Below, piece after piece: positions 37,325 through 51,555 of a stretch of DNA of 64,000 nucleotides. This DNA is from Aureimonas frigidaquae (GTDB lineage Bacteria; Pseudomonadota; Alphaproteobacteria; Rhizobiales; Rhizobiaceae), in assembly GCF_001463905.1 (NCBI RefSeq), contig NZ_BBWR01000010.1:62001-126000 (forward strand). The letters are read 5' to 3'. Each line of letters opens with the position of its first letter. Position 1 is the first letter of the stretch. The notes below the pieces were generated by a model that saw only the letters and a list, made by a program, of their open reading frames with translations, was not told where the DNA came from and ran no database searches. A program made the translations under genes and the position numbers.

Positions 37325-40024
37325 TCAGTGCGCGCGTGTCACCAGGAGCGCCATCGGCAGCGGGCCGAACAGCGTGGCCAGATCGAGCGTCTGCCCGGGG
37401 CCATGGCTGCGCCCGGTCAGCCGATCCCGGAGCGCAAGCCCGGCCAGCGCATCCGGCAGGGTGATCGTGGTCGAGCGCAACTGCGCCGGCGACAAATCGC
37501 GCGCACCATCGAGGAGGCCGAGGCAGAGCCGCGGCGCGATCACGATGCCCACCTGCTCCCCGCTGACCCTTGCGAAGGCGATGAAATTCCCCGCGGCCGG
37601 CCCCTCCAGTTCGAGTGGCACATAGGCGCCATAGGTCCAGAGGTCCGGTGCGGCTGCGCGCTCATTCAGGCCGGCAGCGTTCAAGGCCGCCTTTACCCGC
37701 CCGTCACGCCACGCGGCGGCGAGCGCATCCGGGTCTTCCCCCGCCTCCAGGGCAGCCTGAACGGCCGCAAAATCGATCGGTCGGCGGTTGTCGGGATCGA
37801 CGAGGCTGTTGTCCCAGAATTCGGTGCCCTGATAGATATCCGGAACGCCGGGGGCGCCCAGCCGGATCAGGGTCTGCGACAGGCTGGTCAGCGCGCCAGC
37901 CGCCACGAAGGGCTGGACAGATTCCCAGAACGGGCGAATGACGGCCTCGTCCTCGATGGCCGCCTCCACGAAGCGCTCCAGGGCCGCTTCGTAAGGCTCG
38001 TTCGGCGCGGTCCAGCTGGTGAAGCGCTTGGCCTCGCGGACGGCCTTCTGCATAAAGGCCTTCATGCGCGTGCTGATGCTTTCGCGCGCTTTTCCATCGG
38101 CGGGGTTGAAATCGGCCGGCAGCACGCCGAGCAGGGACTGGTAGAAGCCCCATTCGGTCGCCGGATCGGGGGACACGCCCCCGTCCTCCAAACTTTCACG
38201 CACATGCGCCAGACGCCCGGCCATCTCCTTGACGATGGCGTTCCACTGTTCCGGCGCTTCACTGATCGTGTAGATACGGGCCCGGGCATCTTCGCCCCGC
38301 TTGGTATCGTGCGTCGACAGGGCCAGGAGCCCTTCGGGCTGGTCCTCGATCCGGACGGCCATGGCCGCATGGAAGGCTGCGGGGTCGGCCCCGTAATGGT
38401 CGGGCTCCCCGCCCACCTCGTTCAGGGCGATCAGCCGGTTCCACTGGTAGAAGACCGTGTCTTCGACTGCCTTCGCCATGACGGCGCCCGTGGTCTGCTG
38501 GAACCTGCGCGTGAAGTTGAGCGCACCGGCCATGTCGCGCCCGTCCTCGAAATCGAGCTTCAGGAGCCGCCCGACGAACTCCACCGGCTCGTCGGCTTCC
38601 ACCTTGCGGTTCGCCTTCACCCAGGCCACGGCCTCGTCGATGATCGCGGCATCCTCCGGCGGCACGCCGTCCACACCGGAATAGGTGCGGTAGACGGGGA
38701 GCGCCGTCGCCACTTCCAGGATCGACCGGGTCAGCGTGTCGGGCCCGAAATCACGCGTCGACAGGCCACGCCGTGCAACACCCAGCGCCTCGTCCGACAG
38801 GACAGAGAGTTCACCCGCCAGGTTCTGGCTGAAGATCGCGCGCTTCTGCTTGTGTACCAGCGCTTCGAGCCGCGCGGCATCGTCGACGAAGTCCTCGTAG
38901 GCGGCGGACATCGCCTCTTCCTGGGCCGCATCCACGTAGAGGCCCGACAAAGCGGTGATGAATTCGTAGCCGGTCGTGCCCTCCACATTCCAGCTTCGCC
39001 GCAGGCGTTCGGGTCCGGTCAGGATCTTTTCCACGTGGATGACGATATCGTCCTTGCCCGCCGCGCCCATGGCCTCGCGCAGATCGGACAGATAGGCCTT
39101 GGGGTCGGCGACGCCGTCCACGTGATCGATGCGGATGCCGTCGAGCCGCCCCTCGCCCGCAAGGCGGACGACCCGGCGGTGGCTGTCCCGGAAGACGCGG
39201 CGAATCTCCTGGCGCACGCCGATCAGGTCGGCGATCTCGAAGAAGCGGCGGTAGGACAGCTTCTCGCGCGCCAGCCGCCACCAGGCCAGCCGCCAGTGCT
39301 GGCGCTCGTGGAGGGCGTGAAGGGCGGCGCGGTCGGCGTTGATGGCCTCGATCGCGCTGTCGAGCGCCGTGCGGAAGCCGGCATTCTTCAGACTGTCGGT
39401 CAGCCGTTCCGACAGGTCCTGCGCATCGGCCGGTACGGCTGCGGCAAAGCGGCGGATCAGCGGCTCGCGTAACGGGTGGTCCAGAAAGGCGAAGATGTCC
39501 GGGAAGGTCCGCGGATCGATGGGGAGTTCGTAGCCCCCGGCCGAAAAGCGAAATGCCGTATCCTTCGCATCGAGCACGATGGTGAGGTCCCCGCCTTCGA
39601 GCGCCTCGCCATAGGGACGGCCGAGGACGGGGATCAGGATGCGCTCGGCTTCCCAGGAAATGTCGAACGTGTCGGCCTGGCGGCTCTCCTCCCCCCAGCG
39701 CAGGACGTCCTCCCACCAGCGATTGGCCGGGGATACGCCCATATGGTTGGGAACGAAGTCCAGGATCAGGCCGATCCCCGCCGCGCGCAGGGCATCGGAC
39801 AAAGCGGTGAAGCCTTCCTCTCCGCCCAGTTCGGGCTCGAAGCGGTTGTAATCCACCACGTCGTAACCATGGGTCGAACCGGGAGAGGCTTCGAAGATGG
39901 GCGATGCATAGAAGTGGCTGACGCCCAGCGCCTTCAGATAGGGCACCAGAGCCGTCGCTTCGGCAAATCCGACACCGTTTCGGAACTGCAGGCGATAGGT
40001 GGCACAGAGCGGTCGCCGCGTCAT
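37325..40024 (-). CDS. treY: Maltooligosyl trehalose synthase TreY
   Basis: This 899-residue GH13 enzyme turns the reducing-end glucose of a maltodextrin into a trehalosyl unit. It opens with 'CATYRLQFRNGVGFAEATAL' and 'FYASPIFEASPGSTHGYDVV', the TreY signature, and has 'ILDFVPNHMG' and 'GIRIDHVDGVADPKAYL' from the GH13 barrel, 'DIVIHVEKILTGPERL' with the acid/base Glu region, and 'LSTHDTKRGEDARARI'. It is the last gene of the treZ-malQ-treY run; four bases separate it from malQ. TreZ upstream releases trehalose from its product. Confidence 0.94.
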   Translation of the reverse strand: MTRRPLCATYRLQFRNGVGFAEATALVPYLKALGVSHFYASPIFEASPGSTHGYDVVDYNRFEPELGGEEGFTALSDALRAAGIGLILDFVPNHMGVSPANRWWEDVLRWGEESRQADTFDISWEAERILIPVLGRPYGEALEGGDLTIVLDAKDTAFRFSAGGYELPIDPRTFPDIFAFLDHPLREPLIRRFAAAVPADAQDLSERLTDSLKNAGFRTALDSAIEAINADRAALHALHERQHWRLAWWRLAREKLSYRRFFEIADLIGVRQEIRRVFRDSHRRVVRLAGEGRLDGIRIDHVDGVADPKAYLSDLREAMGAAGKDDIVIHVEKILTGPERLRRSWNVEGTTGYEFITALSGLYVDAAQEEAMSAAYEDFVDDAARLEALVHKQKRAIFSQNLAGELSVLSDEALGVARRGLSTRDFGPDTLTRSILEVATALPVYRTYSGVDGVPPEDAAIIDEAVAWVKANRKVEADEPVEFVGRLLKLDFEDGRDMAGALNFTRRFQQTTGAVMAKAVEDTVFYQWNRLIALNEVGGEPDHYGADPAAFHAAMAVRIEDQPEGLLALSTHDTKRGEDARARIYTISEAPEQWNAIVKEMAGRLAHVRESLEDGGVSPDPATEWGFYQSLLGVLPADFNPADGKARESISTRMKAFMQKAVREAKRFTSWTAPNEPYEAALERFVEAAIEDEAVIRPFWESVQPFVAAGALTSLSQTLIRLGAPGVPDIYQGTEFWDNSLVDPDNRRPIDFAAVQAALEAGEDPDALAAAWRDGRVKAALNAAGLNERAAAPDLWTYGAYVPLELEGPAAGNFIAFARVSGEQVGIVIAPRLCLGLLDGARDLSPAQLRSTTITLPDALAGLALRDRLTGRSHGPGQTLDLATLFGPLPMALLVTRAH

Positions 40025-40028
40025 GGTG

Positions 40029-41864
40029 TCATGGCCTTTCCTCGCGCATGGCCAATGCCATGCTGGTGAATGTCTCGTTCCCGGCCAGTGCCTCGAGCGG
40101 CACCTCGCTGCGGATCCGCCAATTGGGATAGGCGTCCGTCGTTCCGGGCATGTTGGGCTGGCGTTTTGCCATGATCATGTCGTCGAGCTGGACGGCCACC
40201 AGATGGGATGCCGTGCGCGCGGCGAAGCGATGGATGGCGATGGCGAGGTCTTGCGACAGCGCATCGGGGAGCGCCGCATCCGGCGCCACATATGGCTTTG
40301 CGTCCTGCGGCAGGAGCCCCTGTTCGTCCAGTGCGCGCAGGAGGGCGCGGCGATCGGCATCCCGCTCCAGGCGGTCGCGATCCGTGGCGGCCTCGTCCTG
40401 GCGGCCGAGCGTCTGGCGCAATTCGATATCCGTGCCCGACCACCAGCCGCTGAGCGTCGCCAGATCGTGGGTCGAGATGCAGGCGAGCGAGCGGTGCGGA
40501 TAGTCCTGCGGCGGCACGAAGCCGTGGCCGCCGCGCTTCTCGAAATAGAGGACCCGGTAGGACAGGATATTGGCCTCGTCCATCACCGGGCGGAAACCGT
40601 CCGGTACGGTGCCCAGATCCTCCCCGATGACGAGGCAATGGTGCCGGCGTGACGCATCCGCCGCGACATCGACCATCGCGCCCAGCGGGTACCGGACATA
40701 GCCACCCTCTGATGCATCGTGCCCGCGGGCGATCCACCAGAGCCGGGCCAGTCCCATCACGTGGTCGATGCGCACGGCGCCCGCATGCTGCATCATCGCG
40801 TCATAGGCTTCTGCCAGCGGGCGGTAGCCCCGCTCGGCCAGAACCTCCGGCGACAGGGGTGCCAGGCCCCAGTCCTGCCCGGCTGCGTTGAACATGTCCG
40901 GCGGCGAGCCGACGCGTGCATCCGGCACGGTGACCTGCGGATCGATCCAGGTTTCCGCCCCGTCCGGCGCAACGCCAACTGCCAGGTCCAGATACAGGCC
41001 CACGGCCATGCCGGCCGCCAGGGCCCGGCGCTGCGCATCGTGCAACTGTTCCTCGGCCACCATCTGCAGCCAGGCGTGGAAGGCGATATCGGAGGCGTGG
41101 TCGTTGCGGAACTGCGCAACGGCGGCGCCGTTCACATCCCGCAAGCTCTCGGGCCAGGACAGCCAGCCCGCGCCGCCGCCCCCTGCCACGACATAGGCGG
41201 AGATGGCCTCGAAAAGCGCGAACTGCTCAAGACCCGCGCCATGCCGCGTGCGGTAGGCCGTCAGCGCCTGCCCATCGACGGCGCGGCCCTCGTCGAACAC
41301 GGCGCGCAGCAGCCGTGCCTTGACGCTGCCGGCGCGCGCATAATCGATCAGGTCATCGTTCAGCCCATCGAGCAACCGCGGTTCCTCCGCCACCATCCGC
41401 GCCTTGACGTCCGATCCGCCGTCAAGGCGATCCACGGCAATGCAGAAGGGGTTCAGAAACCGGCGGGTGGATGGCGAGTAGGGGCTGTAATGGCCCGGAT
41501 TGGCCAGGAAGGGGGCATGCAGCGGGTTGACGCCCAGGAAGCCCGCGCCGGCCGCGCCGGCCACCTCCGCCAGCTTTGCCAGGTCCTCAAAATCGCCGAA
41601 GCCGAGCGTGCGCTCCGAACGCAGGCTGTAGAGCTGGCATGTGACGCCCCAGAGCCGCCGGCCGGAGGGCGAGACGCAGGATAGAGACGGCGTGTGGCGG
41701 GCAGTCTCGAACCTGCCCGGCGCGCCTTTGTCGGGATCGACCCGCAACACCGCGAGCAGGGAGCGCAGGGCGGCGTCGCCCAGTTGGCGCGCATCGCCCG
41801 TCTCGGAAACATAGCGCGTCTCTATGCCATGGCTGGCGGCAAGCTCTTCCAGTGTCGGGGTCAT
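40029..41864 (-). CDS. malQ: 4-alpha-glucanotransferase MalQ
   Basis: This 611-residue GH77 amylomaltase has 'QLYSLRSERTLGFGDFEDLA' (the GIGDF-like entry motif), 'FLGVNPLHAPF', 'VRIDHVMGLARLWWI' (catalytic Asp region), 'CLVIGEDLGTVPDGFRPVM' (acid/base Glu) and 'ISTHDLATLSGWWSG'. It moves glucan segments between maltodextrins, so it can make chains long enough for TreY. The start overlaps the treZ stop by four bases (41861-41864), and the gene sits between treZ and treY, so the three are translationally coupled. The N-terminal 90 residues are less conserved, as is usual in GH77. Confidence 0.93.
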   Translation of the reverse strand: MTPTLEELAASHGIETRYVSETGDARQLGDAALRSLLAVLRVDPDKGAPGRFETARHTPSLSCVSPSGRRLWGVTCQLYSLRSERTLGFGDFEDLAKLAEVAGAAGAGFLGVNPLHAPFLANPGHYSPYSPSTRRFLNPFCIAVDRLDGGSDVKARMVAEEPRLLDGLNDDLIDYARAGSVKARLLRAVFDEGRAVDGQALTAYRTRHGAGLEQFALFEAISAYVVAGGGGAGWLSWPESLRDVNGAAVAQFRNDHASDIAFHAWLQMVAEEQLHDAQRRALAAGMAVGLYLDLAVGVAPDGAETWIDPQVTVPDARVGSPPDMFNAAGQDWGLAPLSPEVLAERGYRPLAEAYDAMMQHAGAVRIDHVMGLARLWWIARGHDASEGGYVRYPLGAMVDVAADASRRHHCLVIGEDLGTVPDGFRPVMDEANILSYRVLYFEKRGGHGFVPPQDYPHRSLACISTHDLATLSGWWSGTDIELRQTLGRQDEAATDRDRLERDADRRALLRALDEQGLLPQDAKPYVAPDAALPDALSQDLAIAIHRFAARTASHLVAVQLDDMIMAKRQPNMPGTTDAYPNWRIRSEVPLEALAGNETFTSMALAMREERP

Positions 41865-43747
41865 TCACTCAGGCCTTCGGTCAAGTCTCGTCCGGTCAGG
41901 ATAAACGCGACGCTGTATCCGCGCATCCTCCCCTCTTTCAGTTCCTCGACCGTATGGGCATGATTGCTGAAGACTTCCGTTGCATCGTCGAGAAGCGTGC
42001 CGTCGAAATCGTCGCCGATCTCCCACTCGGCATCCTCCAGATTGGCAAAGAGGTGATAGAATTGCCCCGGCGCCAGCTGCCAGGACACGATGAAGGCGCG
42101 CCCGTCCACCACGGCCTGCCCGCAATCGCCCGGCGCCTGCGCCAGAAGCGGGAAGAGCACTTCGCGCCGCAGACTCAGAAGTTCGCTGTTCACCTGCAAT
42201 CGCCGCCGGTTGACCGGCCGCTCCAGAAGGCTCCAGTCGAGCCGTGAGGTGGTGAAAGTGGAATAGTCGTTCGGATCGGGGAAGACCTCCTGTGCGGACG
42301 GGTCCTCGAAAGCCGAGAAGTGGGCGAACTCCGCCTTGCGGCCGCGCGACACGGCCGCACCGAGCTCTCCATCGAAATCGGTGAAGAAGCAGAAGGAGTT
42401 GCAATCCCCGAACTCGTCGCCCTGGAACATCAGCGGGATCTGCGGCGACAGGAGCAGAATGGCCTGGAGGCAATCGAAGGCTCGCGCCGACGACAGGCTG
42501 CGCAGGCGATCGCCGAAGGCGCGGTTGCCGATCTGATCGTGATTCTGCAGGAAGTTCACGAAGGCCGTCGGGGGCAGGTGCTCAGATGCTTCGCCGACGA
42601 TCTTCTTGCGGTGGGGCGAGTGTTCGCCCTGGTAGACGAAGCCCGTGGCCAGCGCCCGTGCGATCTGTTCGGCGGACTCCCACTCGTAGTCGATGTAGTA
42701 GCCTTCGCGGTCGTTGGTCGCCAGCACATGGGCAGCATGGTGGAAATCGTCGTTCCACTCGCCCGAAATGCGCGGCACCGACCCGTCGGCCCCGCGTTCG
42801 ATGAACTGCGTGATGTTGCGTTCGTCTTCGGTCGTCAGGTGGACATGCCGATCGGTGATCCGCACCCGCACGGTCTCAGCCAGCTCCTCCACGAAGCTCT
42901 TGTCGGTCGTATCCTTGATGGAATCGATGGCATCCAGACGCAGCCCGTCCAGGCGGAACTCTTCCAGCCAGTACAGCGCGTTCTCGATCATGAAGGCACG
43001 GACGGGCGCCTCGTCATAGGCGATGGCCGGCCCCCAGGGCGTGTTGATATCCGCATGGAAGAAGGAGGGCAGATAGGCCGGAAGATAATTCCCGTCCGGT
43101 CCGAAGTGATTGTAGACGACGTCCAGGAACACCATGATGCCACGCTCATGCGCGGCATCCACCAGACGTTTCAGGCCCTCATAGCCGCCATAGACATTAT
43201 GCGGACAATAGAGAAGCACGCCGTCATAGCCCCAGCCATGACGCCCGCCGAACTGGGCGATCGGCAGGAGTTCGATCGCCGTGATGCCCGCATCGCGCAG
43301 GTGGTCCAGCCGAGAGATGACGCCGCTGAAGCTGCCCTCGGGCGTGAAGGTGCCGACATGCAATTCGTAGAAGACGGTTTCGTGCCACGGCCGTCCCGTC
43401 CAGCCGGTGCTGCGCCATTCATAGGCGCGCGGATCGACGAGCCGCGAAGGGCCATGCACGTCGAAGACCTGGGAGCGGGAGGCCGGGTCTGGAACGCGCT
43501 TTCCGCCATCGACCGAGAAGCCGTAGCCGCCACCGACGGCAACCGCGTCCGTAACGAGCCGCCACCAGCCATCCTCCTCGCGCGCCATGTCGAGGGTGCG
43601 GGTATCGTCGCCCCCCTCGCCGGCGACGAGGGCGACCGACCTGGCATCCGGCGCCCATAGCTGGAACAGGGCGCCGCCCTCGACGGGCCGCGCGCCCCAT
43701 TGCGTCTCCAGCGCGAAGCTCGCGCCCGTCCGTCCCTCATCGGCCAT
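41861..43747 (-). CDS. treZ: Malto-oligosyltrehalose trehalohydrolase TreZ
   Basis: This 628-residue GH13 enzyme starts with an N-terminal CBM48-type domain (FQLWAPDARSVALVAGEG) followed by the catalytic barrel. Visible blocks are 'ELHVGTFTPEGSFSGVISRL', 'DVVYNHFGPDGNYLPAY', 'GLRLDAIDSI' (nucleophile Asp), 'HLTTEDERN' (acid/base Glu) and 'FLQNHDQIGNRAFG'. It cuts the alpha-1,4 bond next to the trehalosyl end and releases trehalose. It is the first sugar gene of the operon, 18 bases after the metallopeptidase stop, so all four genes may share a transcript. Confidence 0.94.
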   Translation of the reverse strand: MADEGRTGASFALETQWGARPVEGGALFQLWAPDARSVALVAGEGGDDTRTLDMAREEDGWWRLVTDAVAVGGGYGFSVDGGKRVPDPASRSQVFDVHGPSRLVDPRAYEWRSTGWTGRPWHETVFYELHVGTFTPEGSFSGVISRLDHLRDAGITAIELLPIAQFGGRHGWGYDGVLLYCPHNVYGGYEGLKRLVDAAHERGIMVFLDVVYNHFGPDGNYLPAYLPSFFHADINTPWGPAIAYDEAPVRAFMIENALYWLEEFRLDGLRLDAIDSIKDTTDKSFVEELAETVRVRITDRHVHLTTEDERNITQFIERGADGSVPRISGEWNDDFHHAAHVLATNDREGYYIDYEWESAEQIARALATGFVYQGEHSPHRKKIVGEASEHLPPTAFVNFLQNHDQIGNRAFGDRLRSLSSARAFDCLQAILLLSPQIPLMFQGDEFGDCNSFCFFTDFDGELGAAVSRGRKAEFAHFSAFEDPSAQEVFPDPNDYSTFTTSRLDWSLLERPVNRRRLQVNSELLSLRREVLFPLLAQAPGDCGQAVVDGRAFIVSWQLAPGQFYHLFANLEDAEWEIGDDFDGTLLDDATEVFSNHAHTVEELKEGRMRGYSVAFILTGRDLTEGLSE

Positions 43748-43765: not shown

Positions 43766-44944
43766 TCAGGCGGCGTTGGTGTTGGCGGCCGTCGCATGCG
43801 GCGCCGGCATGTCAGGCGCCTCGGTGCCCGTCGGCAGCTGGCTTTCCACCAGCTCCTCCGACAGGCCCGCGCCGGCTGCGTGGCCGACCCGGCCATGCAC
43901 GAGGTCATGAATGAAGCCGAGCTTCTCGATGACCGCCGGAGACAGGACGAAGGGGTACAGATCCTGCAGACCCATGGATCGGTTCAGCGCGTTCAGCGCC
44001 GAAGACAAGGCCAGCCAGGCCTCGGCGATCTGCGCCATGGTCGTTTCGGGGCCGAAAATGTCGAAGTCCAGTTCGGTCGTCAGGATCCCCTCGCGGTCGA
44101 GCCGCGGCGACAGGGTCATGCCCCAGGAGCCACCGGTCTCCAGCGTATCGACGATGTGCATGTAGTGGGCGAAGGTCTCGGCGAAATCCTCCCACGGATG
44201 GGCCGCCGCATAGGACGAGACGAACTCCTCCTGCCAGCCGGGCTTGGGGCCGTTGGCATAATGCGCCTGCAGCGCCGCGCCGTAATCCTGGCTGTCATCG
44301 CCGAAGAGGGCGCGGCAGGCATCGAGCGCTCCGCCGTCCCGCACCAGGCGGTCCCAGTACCAATGGCCGATTTCGTGCCGGAAATGGCCGAGCAGCGTGC
44401 GGTAGGGCTCGCCCATCGATGCGCGGCGCTTTTCGCGCTCGGCATCGTCGGCTTCTGCCAGGGCAATGGTGATGAGGCCGCGATCATGGCCCGTCATGAC
44501 GTTGCCGCCGGTTTCCGGATCATGCGTCAGGAACTGGAAGCCCAGCCCCTCCGGATCCTCCGCCCGGGTCATCAGCGGCATATGCAGCCGCATCAGCGTG
44601 TAGATGAGCCGCTGCTTAGCGAACTCCATCTTCTGCCACAGCGCCACATTCTGCGGGTCGCTCAAGTCCGGCACCGTCAGGTTGAAGCGTGAGGCGATCG
44701 ACAGCGTCTCGGGGCTGTCCGACGGCAGGAGCCAGTTGCAGACCCCGTACTGGAAATTGTCGCAGTACTTCCAGTGATCGCCCTTCGACCGCTTGCCGAC
44801 CGAGACGAAGTAGGTCCCGTCCGGCTCCAGCGCGAGCATGCGGTTGGACAGGGGCTCGTAGCCGAGCGCGTGCCCACAGCGCTCACACACCGTGTTGGTG
44901 AAGTGGACAACCTGGTCACAGGACGGGCAGGAGAAGAGCTTCAT
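43766..44944 (-). CDS. Putative zinc-binding metallopeptidase with N-terminal zinc ribbon
   Basis: This is a 392-residue protein. Residues 6-23 form a zinc ribbon (C6-x-x-C9 and C20-x-x-C23), and H190-E191-x-x-H194 in [11 protein letters not shown] is a zincin active site. Between them lies the conserved '[17 protein letters not shown]' stretch, and after the site comes '[19 protein letters not shown]', whose E and H could complete zinc binding. It matches the family annotated as 'putative zinc-binding metallopeptidase', which, from memory, is often found near transglutaminase/alpha-E/ATP-grasp genes. It is divergent from exactly those genes, with 185 bases between. Substrate is unknown; cleaving a precursor or tagged peptide is my inference. 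Confidence 0.82.
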
Positions 44945-45129
44945 GGGAATGCGCCTTCAGTGAGAGGCCAGACAGGCAAGGGGACGCGGTGGCTCGTTCG
45001 ATGCAGCGCTCAGGAATGTGCGGTGCAGCTTTCGGTTCCATGCTGCGATGCAAACGCTTGTGGAGGATTGCGGTTCGTCTATTGTCCCTGCGCAAGAGCA
45101 ACGCTTCCGCAAAGGCGCGCACCGGACCG

Positions 45130-48100
45130 ATGTCGATACTGGCCGCCCTGACGCATCTCACCCATTATCGCTATGACAGGCCCGTGCGCCTGGGCCCGCA
45201 GACGATCCGCCTGCGACCGGCCCCGCATTCGCGCACACGGGTTCCGTCCTATGCGCTGAAGATTACCCCGGCCAACCACTTCCTGAACTGGCAGCAGGAT
45301 CCATTCGGCAATTATATGGCCCGGCTCGTCTTTCCGGAGCCAACCACGGAATTCAAGATCGAGGTCGACCTCCTGGCCGACATGTCGGTCTACAATCCCT
45401 TCGACTTCTTCATCGAGGATTATGCCGAGCTTTTCCCCTTCGCCTACGCGGCCGACCTGCGGGAAGAGCTCAAGCCCTATCTGGCGCATGATCCCGCCGG
45501 ACCGCTGCTGCAGGAATTCCTGAACGGTATCGACCTGACCCCCAAGGCGACGGTCGATTTCCTGGTGGCGCTGAACCAGAGCGTCACCACCCGCGTCAAT
45601 TACGTGATTCGCATGGAGCCCGGCGTGCAGACGCCGGAAGAAACGCTGACGCGCGGGTCGGGCTCCTGCCGGGACTCCGCCTGGCTGCTCGTCCAGATCT
45701 TCCGCCATCTTGGCCTGGCGGCGCGCTTCGTGTCCGGCTATCTCATCCAGCTCAAGCCCGATGTCGTGGCGCTGGAGGGGCCCGCCGGCACGGACCACGA
45801 CTTCACCGACCTGCACGCCTGGACCGAAGTCTACCTGCCCGGCGCCGGCTGGGTGGGGCTGGATGCGACATCCGGCCTCCTGACGGGCGAAAGCCATATC
45901 CCGCTGGCGGCGACGCCGCACTACGCCTCGGCCGCGCCGATCAGCGGCGCCGTCGACTATGCCGAGGTCACCTTCGACTTCCAGATGCATGTGGCGCGCA
46001 TCGCCGAGCGTCCCCGTGTCACCTATCCCTTCCCGGACGATAGCTGGGACGCGCTGGATGCGCTCGGCACGGCCATCGACGCCGAGCTTGCCGCCGGCGA
46101 CGTGCGGCTGACCATGGGCGGCGAGCCGACCTTCGTCTCCATCGACGATTTCGAAGGGGCGGAATGGAACGCCGAGGCGACGGGCCCTAGCAAGGAGGGG
46201 CTTGCGGAAACGCTGGTCCAGCGCCTGCGGGACCGTTTCGCGCCGGGCGGGCTTATCCATTTCGGGCAAGGCAAATGGTATCCCGGCGAGAGCCTGCCGC
46301 GCTGGACCTATTCGATCTACTGGCGCAAGGACGGCAAGCCGGTCTGGACCGAGCCCCAGCCGACGCCGGCCGAGGGCACGGTCGATATCGAGGATGCGCA
46401 AAAGCTGGTCGGTGTCATCGCCCGCACGCTCGGTGTCGATCCGGCGCATGCCCAGCCCGCCTTCGAGGATCCGGCCTACTGGCTGGCGCGCGAAGCCAAG
46501 CTTCCGGACAATGTGGACCCGGGCGATTCCCGCCTCGATGACCCGGAGGAACGGGCCCGGCTCGCCCGTGTCTTCGACCATGGCCTGACCCGCCCCTCCG
46601 GCATGGTCCTGCCGATCCAGTCGTGGCAGGCGTCCACGGCCAACTCCCCCCGGCGCTGGATGTCGGAAGCGTGGCAGACCCGCCGCGGCAAGCTCTTCCT
46701 CGTCCCCGGCGACAGTTCGGTCGGCTACCGCCTGCCGCTCGCCTCGCTGCCGCATCTGGCGCCCACGGCCTATCCTTACGTGAACCCGGCCGATCCGATG
46801 CAGGAGTTCGGCGCCCTGCCCGATCCGGTCGAGCGCCACCGCGCACAGATGCGGATCGACGCCGCCGCGCCGGCCACCGCCCCCCAGCCCGAGGCCGAAC
46901 CGGGAGAGATCGCCGGCGCCGTCCGCACGGCCCTGTCCATCGAGCCGCGCGACGGCCTTCTCTGCGTCTTCATGCCGCCGCTCACCTCGGCCGACGAATA
47001 TCTCGACCTTCTGGCCGGCGTCGAGGTGGCCGCCGCGCAGACGGGGCTGCCGGTGCGCATCGAAGGCTACCCACCGCCCTTCGACCCGCGGATCGAGGTC
47101 ATCCGCGTCGCGCCCGATCCCGGCGTGATCGAGGTGAACATCCATCCGGCGCGCAACTGGGCGGAAGCGGTCGCCACCACGACCGGCGTCTACGAAGATG
47201 CCCGGCACTCGCGCTTGGGCACCGACAAATTCATGATCGATGGGCGCCACACCGGCACGGGTGGTGGCAACCACGTTGTCGTCGGCGGCGCCACGCCGCT
47301 GGACAGCCCCTTCCTGCGGCGGCCCGATCTCCTGAAGTCGCTGATCGTGTATTGGCAGCGCCATCCATCGCTGTCCTATCTCTTCTCCGGCCTGTTCATC
47401 GGACCGACAAGCCAGGCGCCGCGGATCGACGAGGCCCGCCACGACAGCCTCTACGAGCTCGAGATCGCCATGGCGCAGGTGCCCGGTCCGGGCGCCGGCG
47501 CCCCGCCGCCGCCCTGGCTGGTGGACCGTCTGTTCCGGAACCTGTTGGTGGACGTGACGGGCAACACCCATCGCAGCGAAATCTGCATCGACAAGCTCTT
47601 TTCGCCGGACGGGCCGACGGGCCGGCTCGGACTCGTGGAGTTTCGCGGCTTCGAAATGCCGCCGGATGCGCGCATGTCGCTGGCCCAGCAGCTTTTGATC
47701 CGCGCGCTGATCGCGTGGTTCTGGCGCGCGCCGCAGGAGGGGCGGCTGACCCGCTGGGGCACCGCCCTGCACGATCGCTTCATGCTGCCGGCCTTCCTGT
47801 GGCAGGATTTCCTGGGCGTGCTGGGGGATCTGAACCGCGCGGGCTATCCGATCCGCCCGGAATGGTTCGAGGCGCAGGCCGAGTTCCGCTTCCCCTTCTG
47901 CGGCAAGGTCGAGGAGGGCGGCGTTACGCTGGAGCTGCGCCAGGCCCTCGAACCCTGGCACGTCATGGGCGAAACGGGCGCCATCGGCGGCACGGTGCGC
48001 TTCGTCGACTCCTCTGTCGAACGGCTGCAGGTTAAGCTGTCGGGCTACGATCCGGGCCGCCATGTCGTCGCCTGCAATGGCCGCTTCGTGCCCCTGCAAA

Positions 48101-48444
48101 CAACCGGCGTCAGCGGAGAGGCGGTGGCCGGAGTGCGGTTCAAGGCATGGCAACCGGCCAGCGGGATGCATCCGGCCCTGCCCGTGAATGCGCCCCTCAC
48201 CTTCGACATTTACGATCTCTGGTCGCAGCGCTCGCTCGGGGGCTGCACCTACCACGCAGCCCATCCGGGCGGCCGCAATTACGAGACGCTGCCCGTCAAT
48301 GCCTATGAGGCGGAAGCGCGGCGGCTGGCGCGGTTCCAGGCCTTCGGCCATACGCCGGGTCACTTCGCCCCCACGCGGGAGCTTCCCGACCCGTCCTTCC
48401 CCATGACACTGGATCTGAGGCGTCCGCCGCATCTTGCCTTCTGA
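45130..48444 (+). CDS. Transglutaminase-like protein fused to DUF2126 putative amidoligase
   Basis: This is a 1104-residue protein. Residues 5-90 resemble the bacterial transglutaminase N-terminal domain ([20 protein letters not shown]). The transglutaminase core has the triad C180 (SGSCRDSAW), H229 (DLHAWTEVY) and D245 (GLDATSG). From about residue 300 to the end is a DUF2126 region ([69 protein letters not shown]). DUF2126 (PF09899) is described as a putative amidoligase related to glutamine-synthetase-like COOH-NH2 ligases. The protein could both form and break amide bonds; nothing is known of its substrate. The ATG at 45130 was chosen because it opens on the TG domain. It overlaps the next gene by 11 bases. 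Confidence 0.87.
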
Positions 48445-50644
48445 CCTGTCACCGCGCACATCCCTGGCCGCCTACCGGCCGGCCGGTCCCGACATCATGG
48501 TGGGACCGGACGGCGCGCTGCGCCCGCACTATCGCTTCCTGGCCGACCGCATCGCCCAGATGGACAATTGGGAGCTGCAGGCGCGCCTCGGCCGGGCCGA
48601 TCAGTACCTGACACAGGCCGGCGTCCATTACCGCGATGCCGCCGAAGGCGATGCGGGCGATGCCGCGGAGCGCGGCTGGCCGCTCGGTTTCCTGCCGCTC
48701 GTCCTCGATGCCGCCGAATGGCAGCGCATGGAACGCGGCCTCAAGGCGCGTGCGCAGTATCTGGAGGCGCTGCTCGCCGATCTCTACGGTGCGCGCAGCG
48801 TGGTGCGGGACGGGGTGCTGCCGGCATCGGTCCTTGCGGGCGACCCCGAATTCCTGCTGCCGCTCGCCAACCAGGCGGCGAGCGGGCAACCGCTGCTCAC
48901 CTTCCTGGCGATCGATCTGCGGCCACGGGCGGATGGCGGCTGGGATGTCGTGGCGGACCGCACGCAGGCGCCCTCCGGCGCCGGCTTCGCGCTGGAGAAC
49001 CGGGTTGCAACCGGCAAGGCCTTCCCGGATATTTTGAAAACCGCGCAGGTGCAGCGCCTGGCGGGCTTCTTCCACGCCTTCCGGGACGAGCTGCACGATG
49101 TCGCGGACCGGCTGGGCGGCGGGGGCATCGCAGTGCTGACGCCCGGCCCGATGAGCGAAACGGCGTATGAGCACGCCTATCTTGCGCGGTATCTGGGGCT
49201 GCAACTGGTCGAAGGCGGCGATCTGACCGTGGCGGCGGACAAGGTCTTCCTGCGCAGCGTGGGCGGCGACCGGGTGCTGAAGGTCCTGTGGCGCCGCATG
49301 GATGCCGACTATGCCGATCCCCTGGAGCTCCTGCCCACCTCGCAGATCGGCACACCGGGCCTGTGCCGCGCCATTCGGGCAGGCTCGGTGCGCATCGTCA
49401 ACGCGCTCGGCGCGGGCATTCTGGAATCCCCGGCGCTCGCACCTTACGAGGATGCGCTGGCCGAGCACCTGACCGGCGGCCCGCTCGCCATGCGGATGCG
49501 GCGCGGCACGGGGCCCACCGCCTCTGCCCCCTTCCTGACAGGTGGAACGCTCACACCCCGGGCGCTGGTCCTGCGGGTCTATCTGGCGCGCTGCGCTGGT
49601 GCATGGCGCGTCATGCCGGGGGGCTTTGCGCGGATCGCCGCCGATGGGGGCTCGGATGCCGGCAGCATCCGGGATGGCGGGCGCTCTGTCGATGTCTGGG
49701 TCCTGTCGGACGGCATTCGCGACGAGGTGACGCTTCTGTCCGGCACCCGCCCCTTCCGCCGGCAGCGCCCCGGCCCGCTGCCGGCCCGCGCCGCCGACAA
49801 CCTGTTCTGGCTCGGCCGCCAGGTGGAGCGACTGGATCAGGCCACCCGCCTCGTCCGCCTGTATCGCGACCGGGCCGACGGCACCCTGCCCGGCCCTGTC
49901 GATGCAGCGCTGCGGCATGGTCTGGCGCGCTTCGGCGTCATGCCGCGCGCGCCGCGCGCCGGACTTCTGGCCCTGGCGGAAACGGCCCGCGCCATCGCCT
50001 TCCGCATCCGCGACCGATTCTCGCCCGATGGCTGGCGCGTCCTGTCCGAGGTGCCACGGCTCCTGGAGCCGGGCGGCAAGGACGACATCACCGTCGCCAA
50101 CAATGTGCTGGGGCGCCTGGCGGGCTTCACGGGCCTCGTGGCCGAGAACATGTACAGGCTCGACGGTTGGCGCTTCCTGCAATGCGGCCGCAAGATCGAA
50201 CGCGGTATCGCCGCCTCGCAGACCCTGGCCGACCTGATCGCCCCGGCCCTGGGCGACGACGCGCTCGACGCCATGCTGGAACTGGCCGACAGCCGCTTGA
50301 CCTATCGGCGCCGCTACTCGGTGGAGCTGTGGCGGCCGGCCGTGCTGGACATGGCCGTCCTCGACCCGCTCAACCCGCGATCCCTCGCCACCGTGGCGCA
50401 GGAGCTGGAAGCCGTCATGCTGGCGCTGCCCGGCGACGAGGCGGATTCCCCGCCACAGGCGCCGCTGGCCCGCGCGGCGCGCCTCTCTGTCCGCCTGCGC
50501 ACCGCGACCGCGCCGGAGGTGACGGAAGCTTTCCTGCGGCGGATCGGCCAGGATCTTGCCGACATCTCCGATCTTCTGGCGGCGACCTGCTTTACCCCGT
50601 CAGCCGGCCCCGATGCTGCGCTGAAGAGCGGACGGGTGGAATGA
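48434..50644 (+). CDS. Circularly permuted ATP-grasp protein fused to an alpha-E domain
   Basis: This is a 736-residue protein. Residues 1 to about 440 match the circularly permuted type 2 ATP-grasp family (COG2308 type), with '[20 protein letters not shown]' near residue 100, '[20 protein letters not shown]' and '[19 protein letters not shown]'. Residues 450-736 match the helical alpha-E domain ([20 protein letters not shown] through [13 protein letters not shown]). In many bacteria these are two separate genes; here they are one chain. ATP-grasp ligases join a carboxylate to an amine through an acyl phosphate. The start is a TTG inside the end of the preceding gene, so translation is coupled. 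Function is predicted only. Confidence 0.86.
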
Positions 50645-51555
50645 TGCGCTACGATATCCGCCTGCGCATCGGCTACGATTACGCTCCGCCGGTGCGCGAT
50701 GCACGGCATGTGCTGCGGCTGACCCCGCGCACCGACCGGGGCCAGACGCTGGAGGCCGCGCGGCTCGTCATCCACCCGACGCCGAGCGAGCACCGCGTCG
50801 ATCACTGCTTCTTCGGCAACCGCACCGAGCATGTGCTCCTGCGTGCGCCCCATGCCAGCCTGTCCGTCACCCTTATGGCGAGGGTGGGTGTCGCGCGGGG
50901 CCTGCCGGCGCTCGACACCGCGCCGCCCCTTTGCGAGGTGGTGGAGGCCGCGGCCCTCAGCCGGGGCGCGGACGGGACGGCGCCGGCCTTCCTGTCGGCG
51001 GCCGGCCGCCTGGTTGCGCCGCAGGCCGATGCCGGCGCCTTCATCCGCCAAAGCCTGTCGGCGGGATCGCTCGGCCCGGGCCTCCTGGCCGCGGCCCGGG
51101 CGATCCGCGACGAATTCGCCTATGAGCCGGGCTTCTCGGATCTGACCACCAGCGTGACGACCGTGCTGCGGGAAAAGCGGGGCGTCTGCCAGGACTTTGC
51201 GCATTTGATGATCGCGGGGCTGCGGCATCTCGGCATACCGGCCGCCTATGTTTCGGGCTTTTTGCGCACCGAACCGCCGGACGGCGCGCCGCGCGTCGAA
51301 GGGGCCGATGCCATGCACGCCTGGGTCGAGGCCTGGCTCGGGCCCGACCTCGGCTGGGTCGGCTTCGATCCGACCAATGGCTGCGTGGTGGAGGACGGGC
51401 ATATCGCGGTGGCGATCGGGCGGGACTATGCCGACGTCGCGCCGGTGGCCGGCGTCGTCACGACCATGGGGGGCCAGGCCGCCTTCCACGCGGTCGACGT
51501 CGTGCCGCAGACGGAGCGTCCCGCGGCCTGGCAGGCGGCGCTCGATCCACGTTGA
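50641..51555 (+). CDS. Transglutaminase-like cysteine peptidase family protein
   Basis: This 304-residue protein has a bacterial transglutaminase N-terminal beta domain (residues 3-90, LRIGYDYAPPVRDARHVLRL) and a core domain with the complete triad C183 (KRGVCQDFAHLM), H226 (DAMHAWVEAW) and D243 (VGFDPTNGC). Members of this family act as amidases or ligases on peptide bonds; none of this subgroup has a firm substrate to my knowledge. The start overlaps the previous stop (ATGATG at 50641), completing a three-gene coupled operon. It is cytoplasmic, with no signal peptide. Confidence 0.88.
   Translation: MMRYDIRLRIGYDYAPPVRDARHVLRLTPRTDRGQTLEAARLVIHPTPSEHRVDHCFFGNRTEHVLLRAPHASLSVTLMARVGVARGLPALDTAPPLCEVVEAAALSRGADGTAPAFLSAAGRLVAPQADAGAFIRQSLSAGSLGPGLLAAARAIRDEFAYEPGFSDLTTSVTTVLREKRGVCQDFAHLMIAGLRHLGIPAAYVSGFLRTEPPDGAPRVEGADAMHAWVEAWLGPDLGWVGFDPTNGCVVEDGHIAVAIGRDYADVAPVAGVVTTMGGQAAFHAVDVVPQTERPAAWQAALDPR

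Follow-up and report, generated by a model that had tools for sequence, protein, structure and literature searches.

The DUF2126 locus of Aureimonas frigidaquae as a probable arm of the Anbu-type amide-bond system

Four adjoining genes in a 64,000-nucleotide stretch of the Aureimonas frigidaquae genome (the window) raise the question of whether a single bacterial locus both makes and breaks amide bonds. The original prediction read from these genes two amide-forming ligase folds, two transglutaminase (TG)-type enzymes and a zinc peptidase, and proposed a conjugation or tagging cycle. Our analysis very probably places the locus in the Anbu/circularly permuted (CP) ATP-grasp/Alpha-E/TG system, as its DUF2126 arm; in this genome the arm is split from the core arm, which lies on another contig. 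The ATP-grasp domain encoded in the window keeps its fold and, judging from its residues, is very likely dead as a ligase. The analysis adds three points: it identifies the ligase copy that can work and its location, indicates that the second copy is in all likelihood no longer catalytic, and ties the zinc peptidase to the system. The Anbu-type system contains a proteasome relative and is common: of 299 genomes sampled from the phylum, 161 have its CP-ATP-grasp (PF14403). Knowing the working ligase copy and the modules that travel together tells experimenters what to co-purify and what to omit.

Open reading frame calls and Pfam searches placed the four genes and their domains as predicted. 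The TG-DUF2126 fusion (45130–48444, + strand, ATG at 45130; 1104 amino acids) has its TG core at ~45526–45867 and DUF2126 at ~45958–48420, with matches to Bact_transglu_N, Transglut_core and PF09899 (1308 bits). It overlaps by 11 bp a fused ATP-grasp/Alpha-E gene (48434–50644, + strand, TTG start; 736 amino acids; PF14403, PF04174 and the Alpha-E family PF04168), whose ATP-grasp part spans ~48434–49723 and whose Alpha-E part spans ~49778–50587. A further 4-bp overlap leads into the second TG-type gene (50641–51555, + strand; 304 amino acids; core ~51088–51372; Transglut_core and Bact_transglu_N), the product of which resembles the solved structure 3isr. Divergent from these and separated from TG-DUF2126 by 185 bp is the gene for a metallopeptidase with a zinc ribbon and a Peptidase_Mx domain (43766–44944, − strand; 392 amino acids; HExxH at ~44363–44377; PF10005 and PF15887, the latter at 5.5e-103). 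No NCBIfam family was matched by the four proteins at E 0.001.

The hydrolase-type active sites of the locus were intact, as had been claimed. Homologues were collected with phmmer, the window's proteins serving as queries. Among those aligned, the TG-DUF2126 triad C180/H229/D245 was invariant in 99 of 99 and the triad C183/H226/D243 of the second TG in 109 of 109, a set drawing its stand-alone TGs from both kinds of operon; the window's copy is counted in each case. The peptidase motif H190-E191-x-x-H194 was likewise invariant (39/39, window included), and the ribbon cysteines C6, C9, C20 and C23 were kept in all 37 rows with letters there. The window holds the only two Bact_transglu_N domains of its genome. 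Three of five other genomes of the genus also have two, and G307 and G310 carry a third one elsewhere.

Could the fused protein still act as a ligase through its ATP-grasp half? The model of the fused protein (predicted local distance difference test score, pLDDT, 87.1; predicted template modelling score, pTM, 0.84) matched best 3n6x (E 3e-22), a CP ATP-grasp of Methylobacillus flagellatus named 'putative glutathionylspermidine synthase', followed by glutathione synthetases, and the fold of 3n6x is shared by its first half. However, the phmmer alignment of the window protein skips residues 322–373 of 3n6x, and its ATP/Mg-type residues are gone; for the stand-alone ATP-grasp encoded elsewhere in this genome, the alignment to 3n6x runs through 468 residues and is broken by two single-residue gaps. 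The family was then compared position by position in 49 stand-alone and 73 fused copies, the window's included and four partial stand-alone fragments excluded (numbering of L121_6511). Residues present in 49 of 49 stand-alone copies were mostly absent from the 73 fused ones: E164 was found in 1, N166, D323 and D324 in none, K325 in 1, D432 and N463 in none, K372 in 13, G378 in 3, G379 in 11 and G381 in 7. By position and motif (an E-x-N motif, lysines and a glycine loop), these resemble the Mg/ATP ligands of glutathione synthetase-type ATP-grasp enzymes. If the fused ATP-grasp were assayed as the ligase, a false negative would most likely result.

In the window, alignments locate the in-frame deletion junction of the former ATP-binding lysine/glycine-loop segment at 49490–49505 (+ strand), near residue 355. 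The fused gene is present in all 21 genomes of the genus examined; in 16 of them the former lid segment is at least partly kept, variable and with its motif gone, and the window copy (G000) and four of 20 congeners (G299, G300, G301 and G303) lack the greater part, with a somewhat different junction in G303. An assembly error was ruled out, because the four other copies with the same loss align end to end with the window copy at 56–61% identity, which indicates a feature of a clade. A tree built by a quick method, with Shimodaira–Hasegawa-like approximate likelihood ratio (SH-aLRT) support only, parted the fused from the stand-alone ATP-grasp copies at one branch (support 100). The fused copies have conserved positions of their own, lacking in stand-alone copies (in window numbering, Q178 in 65, G184 in 72, E298 in 70 and E331 in 71 of 72 others), and the fused ATP-grasp domain therefore seems to be under selection for another purpose. 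Twelve long end branches were flagged in the tree, 11 of them fused copies. Two of the fused copies (L075:11309 and L089:6044) have very long branches, which may reflect further pseudo-ligase decay or a long-branch artefact.

The residue-bearing copy lies in a core operon at ~543.5–546.8 kb of contig C2 (L121:6511-9790), which encodes a stand-alone ATP-grasp, a stand-alone Alpha-E and Anbu. This CP ATP-grasp (C2:543786–544916) covers positions 1–374 of PF14403 and carries the motifs ADDK, VVKEVHGSGGYGM and NSSQGGGTKDTW. Alpha-E occurs both fused, in the window, and stand-alone, beside the C2 ATP-grasp. Anbu (C2:546049–546786) begins MTYCVGL, and its five PDB matches were Anbu entries, a designed Anbu or entries named peptidase. 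Thr1, Asp17 and Lys32, which the available text of PMC6376114 gives as the catalytic candidates of Anbu, are present when the sequence is read by eye against that paper. Across the seven proteins of both loci the highest mean Kyte–Doolittle value over 19 residues was 1.27; showing no long hydrophobic stretch, all seven are taken to be cytosolic.

The families are those of the Anbu operon system, and this genome has the ATP-grasp, Alpha-E and Anbu of that system in one operon. By comparison, the window arm, which stands at a distance from the core operon, adds DUF2126, the fused pseudo-ATP-grasp–Alpha-E, a second TG and Peptidase_Mx; the core operon of this genome is without a TG. No TG was found near the Anbu operon in 21 of 21 genus genomes, in the stretches around the operon (shortened in L209 and L212). 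The 20 other genus genomes examined share the make-up of this core operon, an ATP-grasp with intact motifs, Alpha-E and Anbu. Outside the genus, 14 ATP-grasp loci were compared (L123–L126 and L133–L142). Seven of these (L135–L138 and L140–L142) have the order ATP-grasp, Alpha-E, TG, Anbu; L123–L126 have Peptidase_Mx in place of TG, L133 lacks Anbu, and L134 and L139 have only ATP-grasp and Alpha-E, the former ending at a contig end. Elsewhere in the phylum, both arms and Anbu stand together in one stretch (L063, L065, L067, L070, L071, L076, L077, L090 and L109–L111).

Do these genes travel together beyond Aureimonas? PF09899 was present in 84 of the 299 phylum genomes. For 80 of the other 83 positives, stretches of 10.6–20 kb were surveyed, the fragmented G053, G097 and G153 being dropped. 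The neighbourhoods were not random: TG-DUF2126, the fused ATP-grasp–Alpha-E and TG were found together in 72 of the 80 loci, which bears out the predicted linkage. The eight loci without the full trio were L052, L072, L074, L078, L082, L099, L102 and L107, with L074 and L107 cut by contig ends on that side. Among named genomes, at least 573 relatives were confirmed, of which the best 80 were scanned, a set biased to close kin and mostly alphaproteobacteria, with some loci cut; 74 of the 80 had the fused gene and 73 a stand-alone TG, the nearest relatives among them being Mangrovicella (71% identity) and Aurantimonas (69%).

Co-occurrence tied the parts to the stand-alone ATP-grasp. A stand-alone-type CP-ATP-grasp was found in all 84 DUF2126 genomes (82 from the genome listing, with that of G207 in an overlong frame, and those of G036 and G212 from loci L072 and L102), whereas 77 of the 215 genomes without DUF2126 had a PF14403 match of any kind, five of these weak. 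Anbu was accompanied by ATP-grasp in 101 of 102 genomes (exception G094; G149 and G016 being weak matches). Counted by genus, the ties to ATP-grasp were 43/43 for DUF2126, 25/26 for Peptidase_Mx and 64/65 for Anbu. When the comparison was restricted to the 156 genomes whose ATP-grasp match is firm, DUF2126 was found in 34 of 45 Peptidase_Mx genomes versus 50 of the 111 without Peptidase_Mx (Fisher p 7e-4) and Anbu in 35 of 45 versus 66 of 111 (p 0.04, weak); Anbu and DUF2126 were unassociated (p 0.31). All these p values are too small because the tests count related genomes as independent.

From the loci surveyed we read three modules: a core of ATP-grasp and Alpha-E, often with TG and Anbu; TG-DUF2126 with or without Peptidase_Mx; and the pseudo-ATP-grasp–Alpha-E with its TG. 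G194 and G197, of the same family, keep the fused protein and the adjoining TG (fused Alpha-E at C63 and C4) and have no PF09899 match. Conversely, among the 80 best-matching named genomes, Mangrovicella, Aurantimonas and Boseongicola have Peptidase_Mx and TG-DUF2126 together and miss the fused protein, which is also missing in Lichenibacterium, whose locus holds no Peptidase_Mx. All four have one Alpha-E match each, scoring like a stand-alone copy (the completeness of these genomes is not told). In L099 (7803–10830; genome G267), TG (300 amino acids) and DUF2126 (713 amino acids) are two overlapping genes instead of one fusion, and G267 has a single ATP-grasp match and a single Alpha-E match.

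Is the zinc peptidase, then, a chance neighbour? It adjoins TG-DUF2126 in every one of the 19 other genus loci whose flank is long enough to tell (L192 is cut short), and 45 of the 46 Peptidase_Mx genomes have the ATP-grasp (exception G086; G200, G217 and G287 being fragments or weak matches). It was also found in the fetched stretch of nine of the 80 phylum loci (L042, L045, L047, L048, L050, L056, L075, L089 and L093) and in eight of the 80 named loci, and it adjoins ATP-grasp/Alpha-E in L123–L126 and also Anbu in L124–L126. With this genome counted, it lies near the system in 14 of the 46. Counting against the link, in most of the remaining 32 genomes, including other sampled genera of the window's family, it lies elsewhere by the listed coordinates, and in L127–L132 it stands alone, with no other part of the system in the stretch. 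We conclude that the peptidase belongs with the system, in line with the original prediction, and is not a chance neighbour. A role as general substitute for Anbu was ruled out, since the two co-occur in 35 genomes and are neighbours in L124–L126; Peptidase_Mx may locally replace Anbu in the 11 of 46 Peptidase_Mx genomes without an Anbu match.

With the fused ATP-grasp probably silent, the DUF2126 domain is the other candidate ligase of the window. Foldseek matched its model (pLDDT 76.6, pTM 0.79) best to two chains of YbdK (1r8g at E 1.6e-4 and a second at 5.5e-4), and the rows at E > 0.001 were mostly of glutamine synthetase (GS) fold, namely GmaS, glutamine synthetases, Dop and PafA. The template modelling (TM) scores by query were low in the GS-fold rows (0.14–0.18), so the support for a GS/YbdK-type fold in the model extends to a portion of the chain. 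The DUF2126 alignment shows many invariant charged residues. Searched against the PDB, the DUF2126 sequence profile found no GS-fold chain and matched two TG chains; two weak chains named lincosamide resistance protein (E 0.77) were taken as chance.

How much of this is already in print? Iyer 2009 is said to have predicted an Anbu/CP-ATP-grasp/Alpha-E/TG system that included a GS-like ligase. The available text of PMC5666114 and PMC6376114 credits the Anbu operon system to Iyer 2009 and Valas & Bourne 2008 and holds the core idea of an amide-bond system for that operon, which agrees with the statement in the original prediction that comparative genomics had proposed such roles before. Our literature search found DUF2126 named in no paper of the collection searched, no relevant paper for Peptidase_Mx/PF15887 there and, in the literature found, no known substrate for the Anbu-type system. 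In Pseudomonas, RimK/RimB and RloABC also combine an ATP-grasp with a peptidase in one operon, with a TG domain in Rlo; in the text of PMC12239564 at hand, however, they have a RimK-like ATP-grasp, an aspartic peptidase and a membrane-bound inactive TG, and the likeness is an analogy only.

Several published observations, from the portions of the sources available, connect the system with nitrogen. In Burkholderia cenocepacia, I35_5080-83 depends on sigma54 and NtrC and is among their common targets; its products are DUF404/DUF407, DUF403, a transglutaminase-like protein and a 'large protein containing transglutaminase-like domain' (PMC5491218). The large protein is presumably TG-DUF2126, because L096 shows the same gene order. 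Anbu is upregulated in nitrogen-limited P. putida (cited in PMC5666114), and Bact_transglu_N, DUF403, DUF404 and DUF407 are linked to urea genes in marine metagenomes (PMC3597751).

We propose that the locus serves a cytosolic isopeptide make-and-recycle pathway, as the DUF2126 arm of the Anbu-type system, and give this explanation as a whole an even chance; the chemistry and role proposed next are held more tentatively, at somewhat less than that. The stand-alone ATP-grasp and the GS-fold DUF2126 would use ATP to activate carboxylates and couple these to amines, so that a peptide or small molecule of the cytosol would acquire bonds of gamma-glutamyl or isopeptide type. Transfer or trimming of the product would fall to the Cys-His-Asp domains, one of which is fused in line with DUF2126, and Peptidase_Mx (and Anbu) would hydrolyse it. 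The pseudo-ATP-grasp–Alpha-E protein may partner the second TG in a binding or regulatory role, with no catalysis of its own. Given that these are nitrogen-starvation genes in some other proteobacteria, the pathway likely serves to make and recycle a conjugate that carries nitrogen, not to mark proteins for destruction. A bolder version is doubtful: the fused protein would be a repurposed pseudo-ligase that serves its TG as a substrate receptor or an allosteric partner, TG-DUF2126 and Peptidase_Mx would form a dedicated writer–eraser pair, and the former ATP lid would be in the course of being shed in the genus.

Several points weigh against the proposed pathway. TG-fold proteins can be plain peptidases, and the GS fold includes both ligases and the hydrolase Dop, so DUF2126 may work in either direction. 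The TM-scores of the DUF2126 model are low, and E fell below 0.001 for just the two YbdK chains. The check for ATP residues covered the genus and the 49 aligned stand-alone copies rather than all 84 genomes. The DUF2126 gene can be absent where the fused-gene/TG pair is present, and the reverse, and hence they need not act as one complex. For the enzymes of the DUF2126 arm, the literature search turned up no report of a measured activity, and no conserved sigma54 site was found upstream in the genus. For the related systems, the available text of PMC6376114 reports that no peptidase activity of Anbu and no interaction among the Yersinia operon proteins was detected.

Which other explanations fit these data? 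The claim that both ligase folds of the window form amide bonds, so that the locus alone would run a cycle of conjugation and cleavage, is very unlikely. Its two folds and its triads are there, the GS/YbdK-type fold of DUF2126 as modelled, and to this extent the claim stands. Nevertheless, fused copies are nearly all without the residues that are invariant in stand-alone ones, the window copy also lacks most of the lysine/glycine-loop segment, and the copy that bears the residues sits elsewhere in the genome, in the Anbu operon. It is unlikely, too, that the locus is purely hydrolytic and scavenges nitrogen, with the TG domains and Peptidase_Mx as peptidases and the GS-fold domain running in reverse as an amidase like Dop. 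Such a function would suit the three intact hydrolase-type active sites, the depupylase Dop among the GS-fold matches and the nitrogen regulation in Burkholderia (PMC5491218, in part). The strict tie to the stand-alone ATP-grasp argues otherwise, together with the relative from Yersinia, which in the available text of PMC6376114 frees phosphate from ATP, with no stimulation by Anbu, glutamine or glutamate, in data that cannot separate ligation from ATP hydrolysis; the two suggest a synthetic step somewhere.

Biosynthesis of a small molecule or peptide metabolite, with no tagging of proteins, is rather unlikely. Enzymes that produce small gamma-glutamyl compounds, namely glutathione synthetase, glutathionylspermidine synthetase, YbdK and GmaS, have the folds nearest to those of the system. 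The urea-linked domain network of marine metagenomes (PMC3597751, in the part available) would also suit a metabolite, whereas the proteasome-like nature of Anbu speaks against such a pathway. Service to the neighbouring trehalose/glycogen genes is highly improbable. TreY-, MalQ- and TreZ-like genes (37325–43747, − strand), so named from their domain content, lie next to the zinc peptidase gene of the window, and the TreZ- and MalQ-like ones adjoin Peptidase_Mx also in 18 of the 19 other genus loci whose flank is long enough. However, no TreZ-, MalQ- or LepA-like gene (E 1e-40) was found in L032–L111, L121 and L123–L142; with this synteny confined to the genus, the link was ruled out.

Does nitrogen control extend to the promoter of the window locus? 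A sigma54-like site with two mismatches lies at 44990–45005 (+ strand), upstream of TG-DUF2126; it is weak and unconserved in the genus. The whole window holds 13 two-mismatch matches versus 14.9 expected. A sigma54 promoter was not relied on for the genus. With a stricter core, sites in the genus were found upstream of TG-DUF2126 in 2 of 15 cases (control 0.016) and upstream of the ATP-grasp operons in 0 of 14 (control 0.02). Outside the genus, the corresponding fractions were above control, at 3 of 7 (control 0.031) and 4 of 17 (control 0.029).

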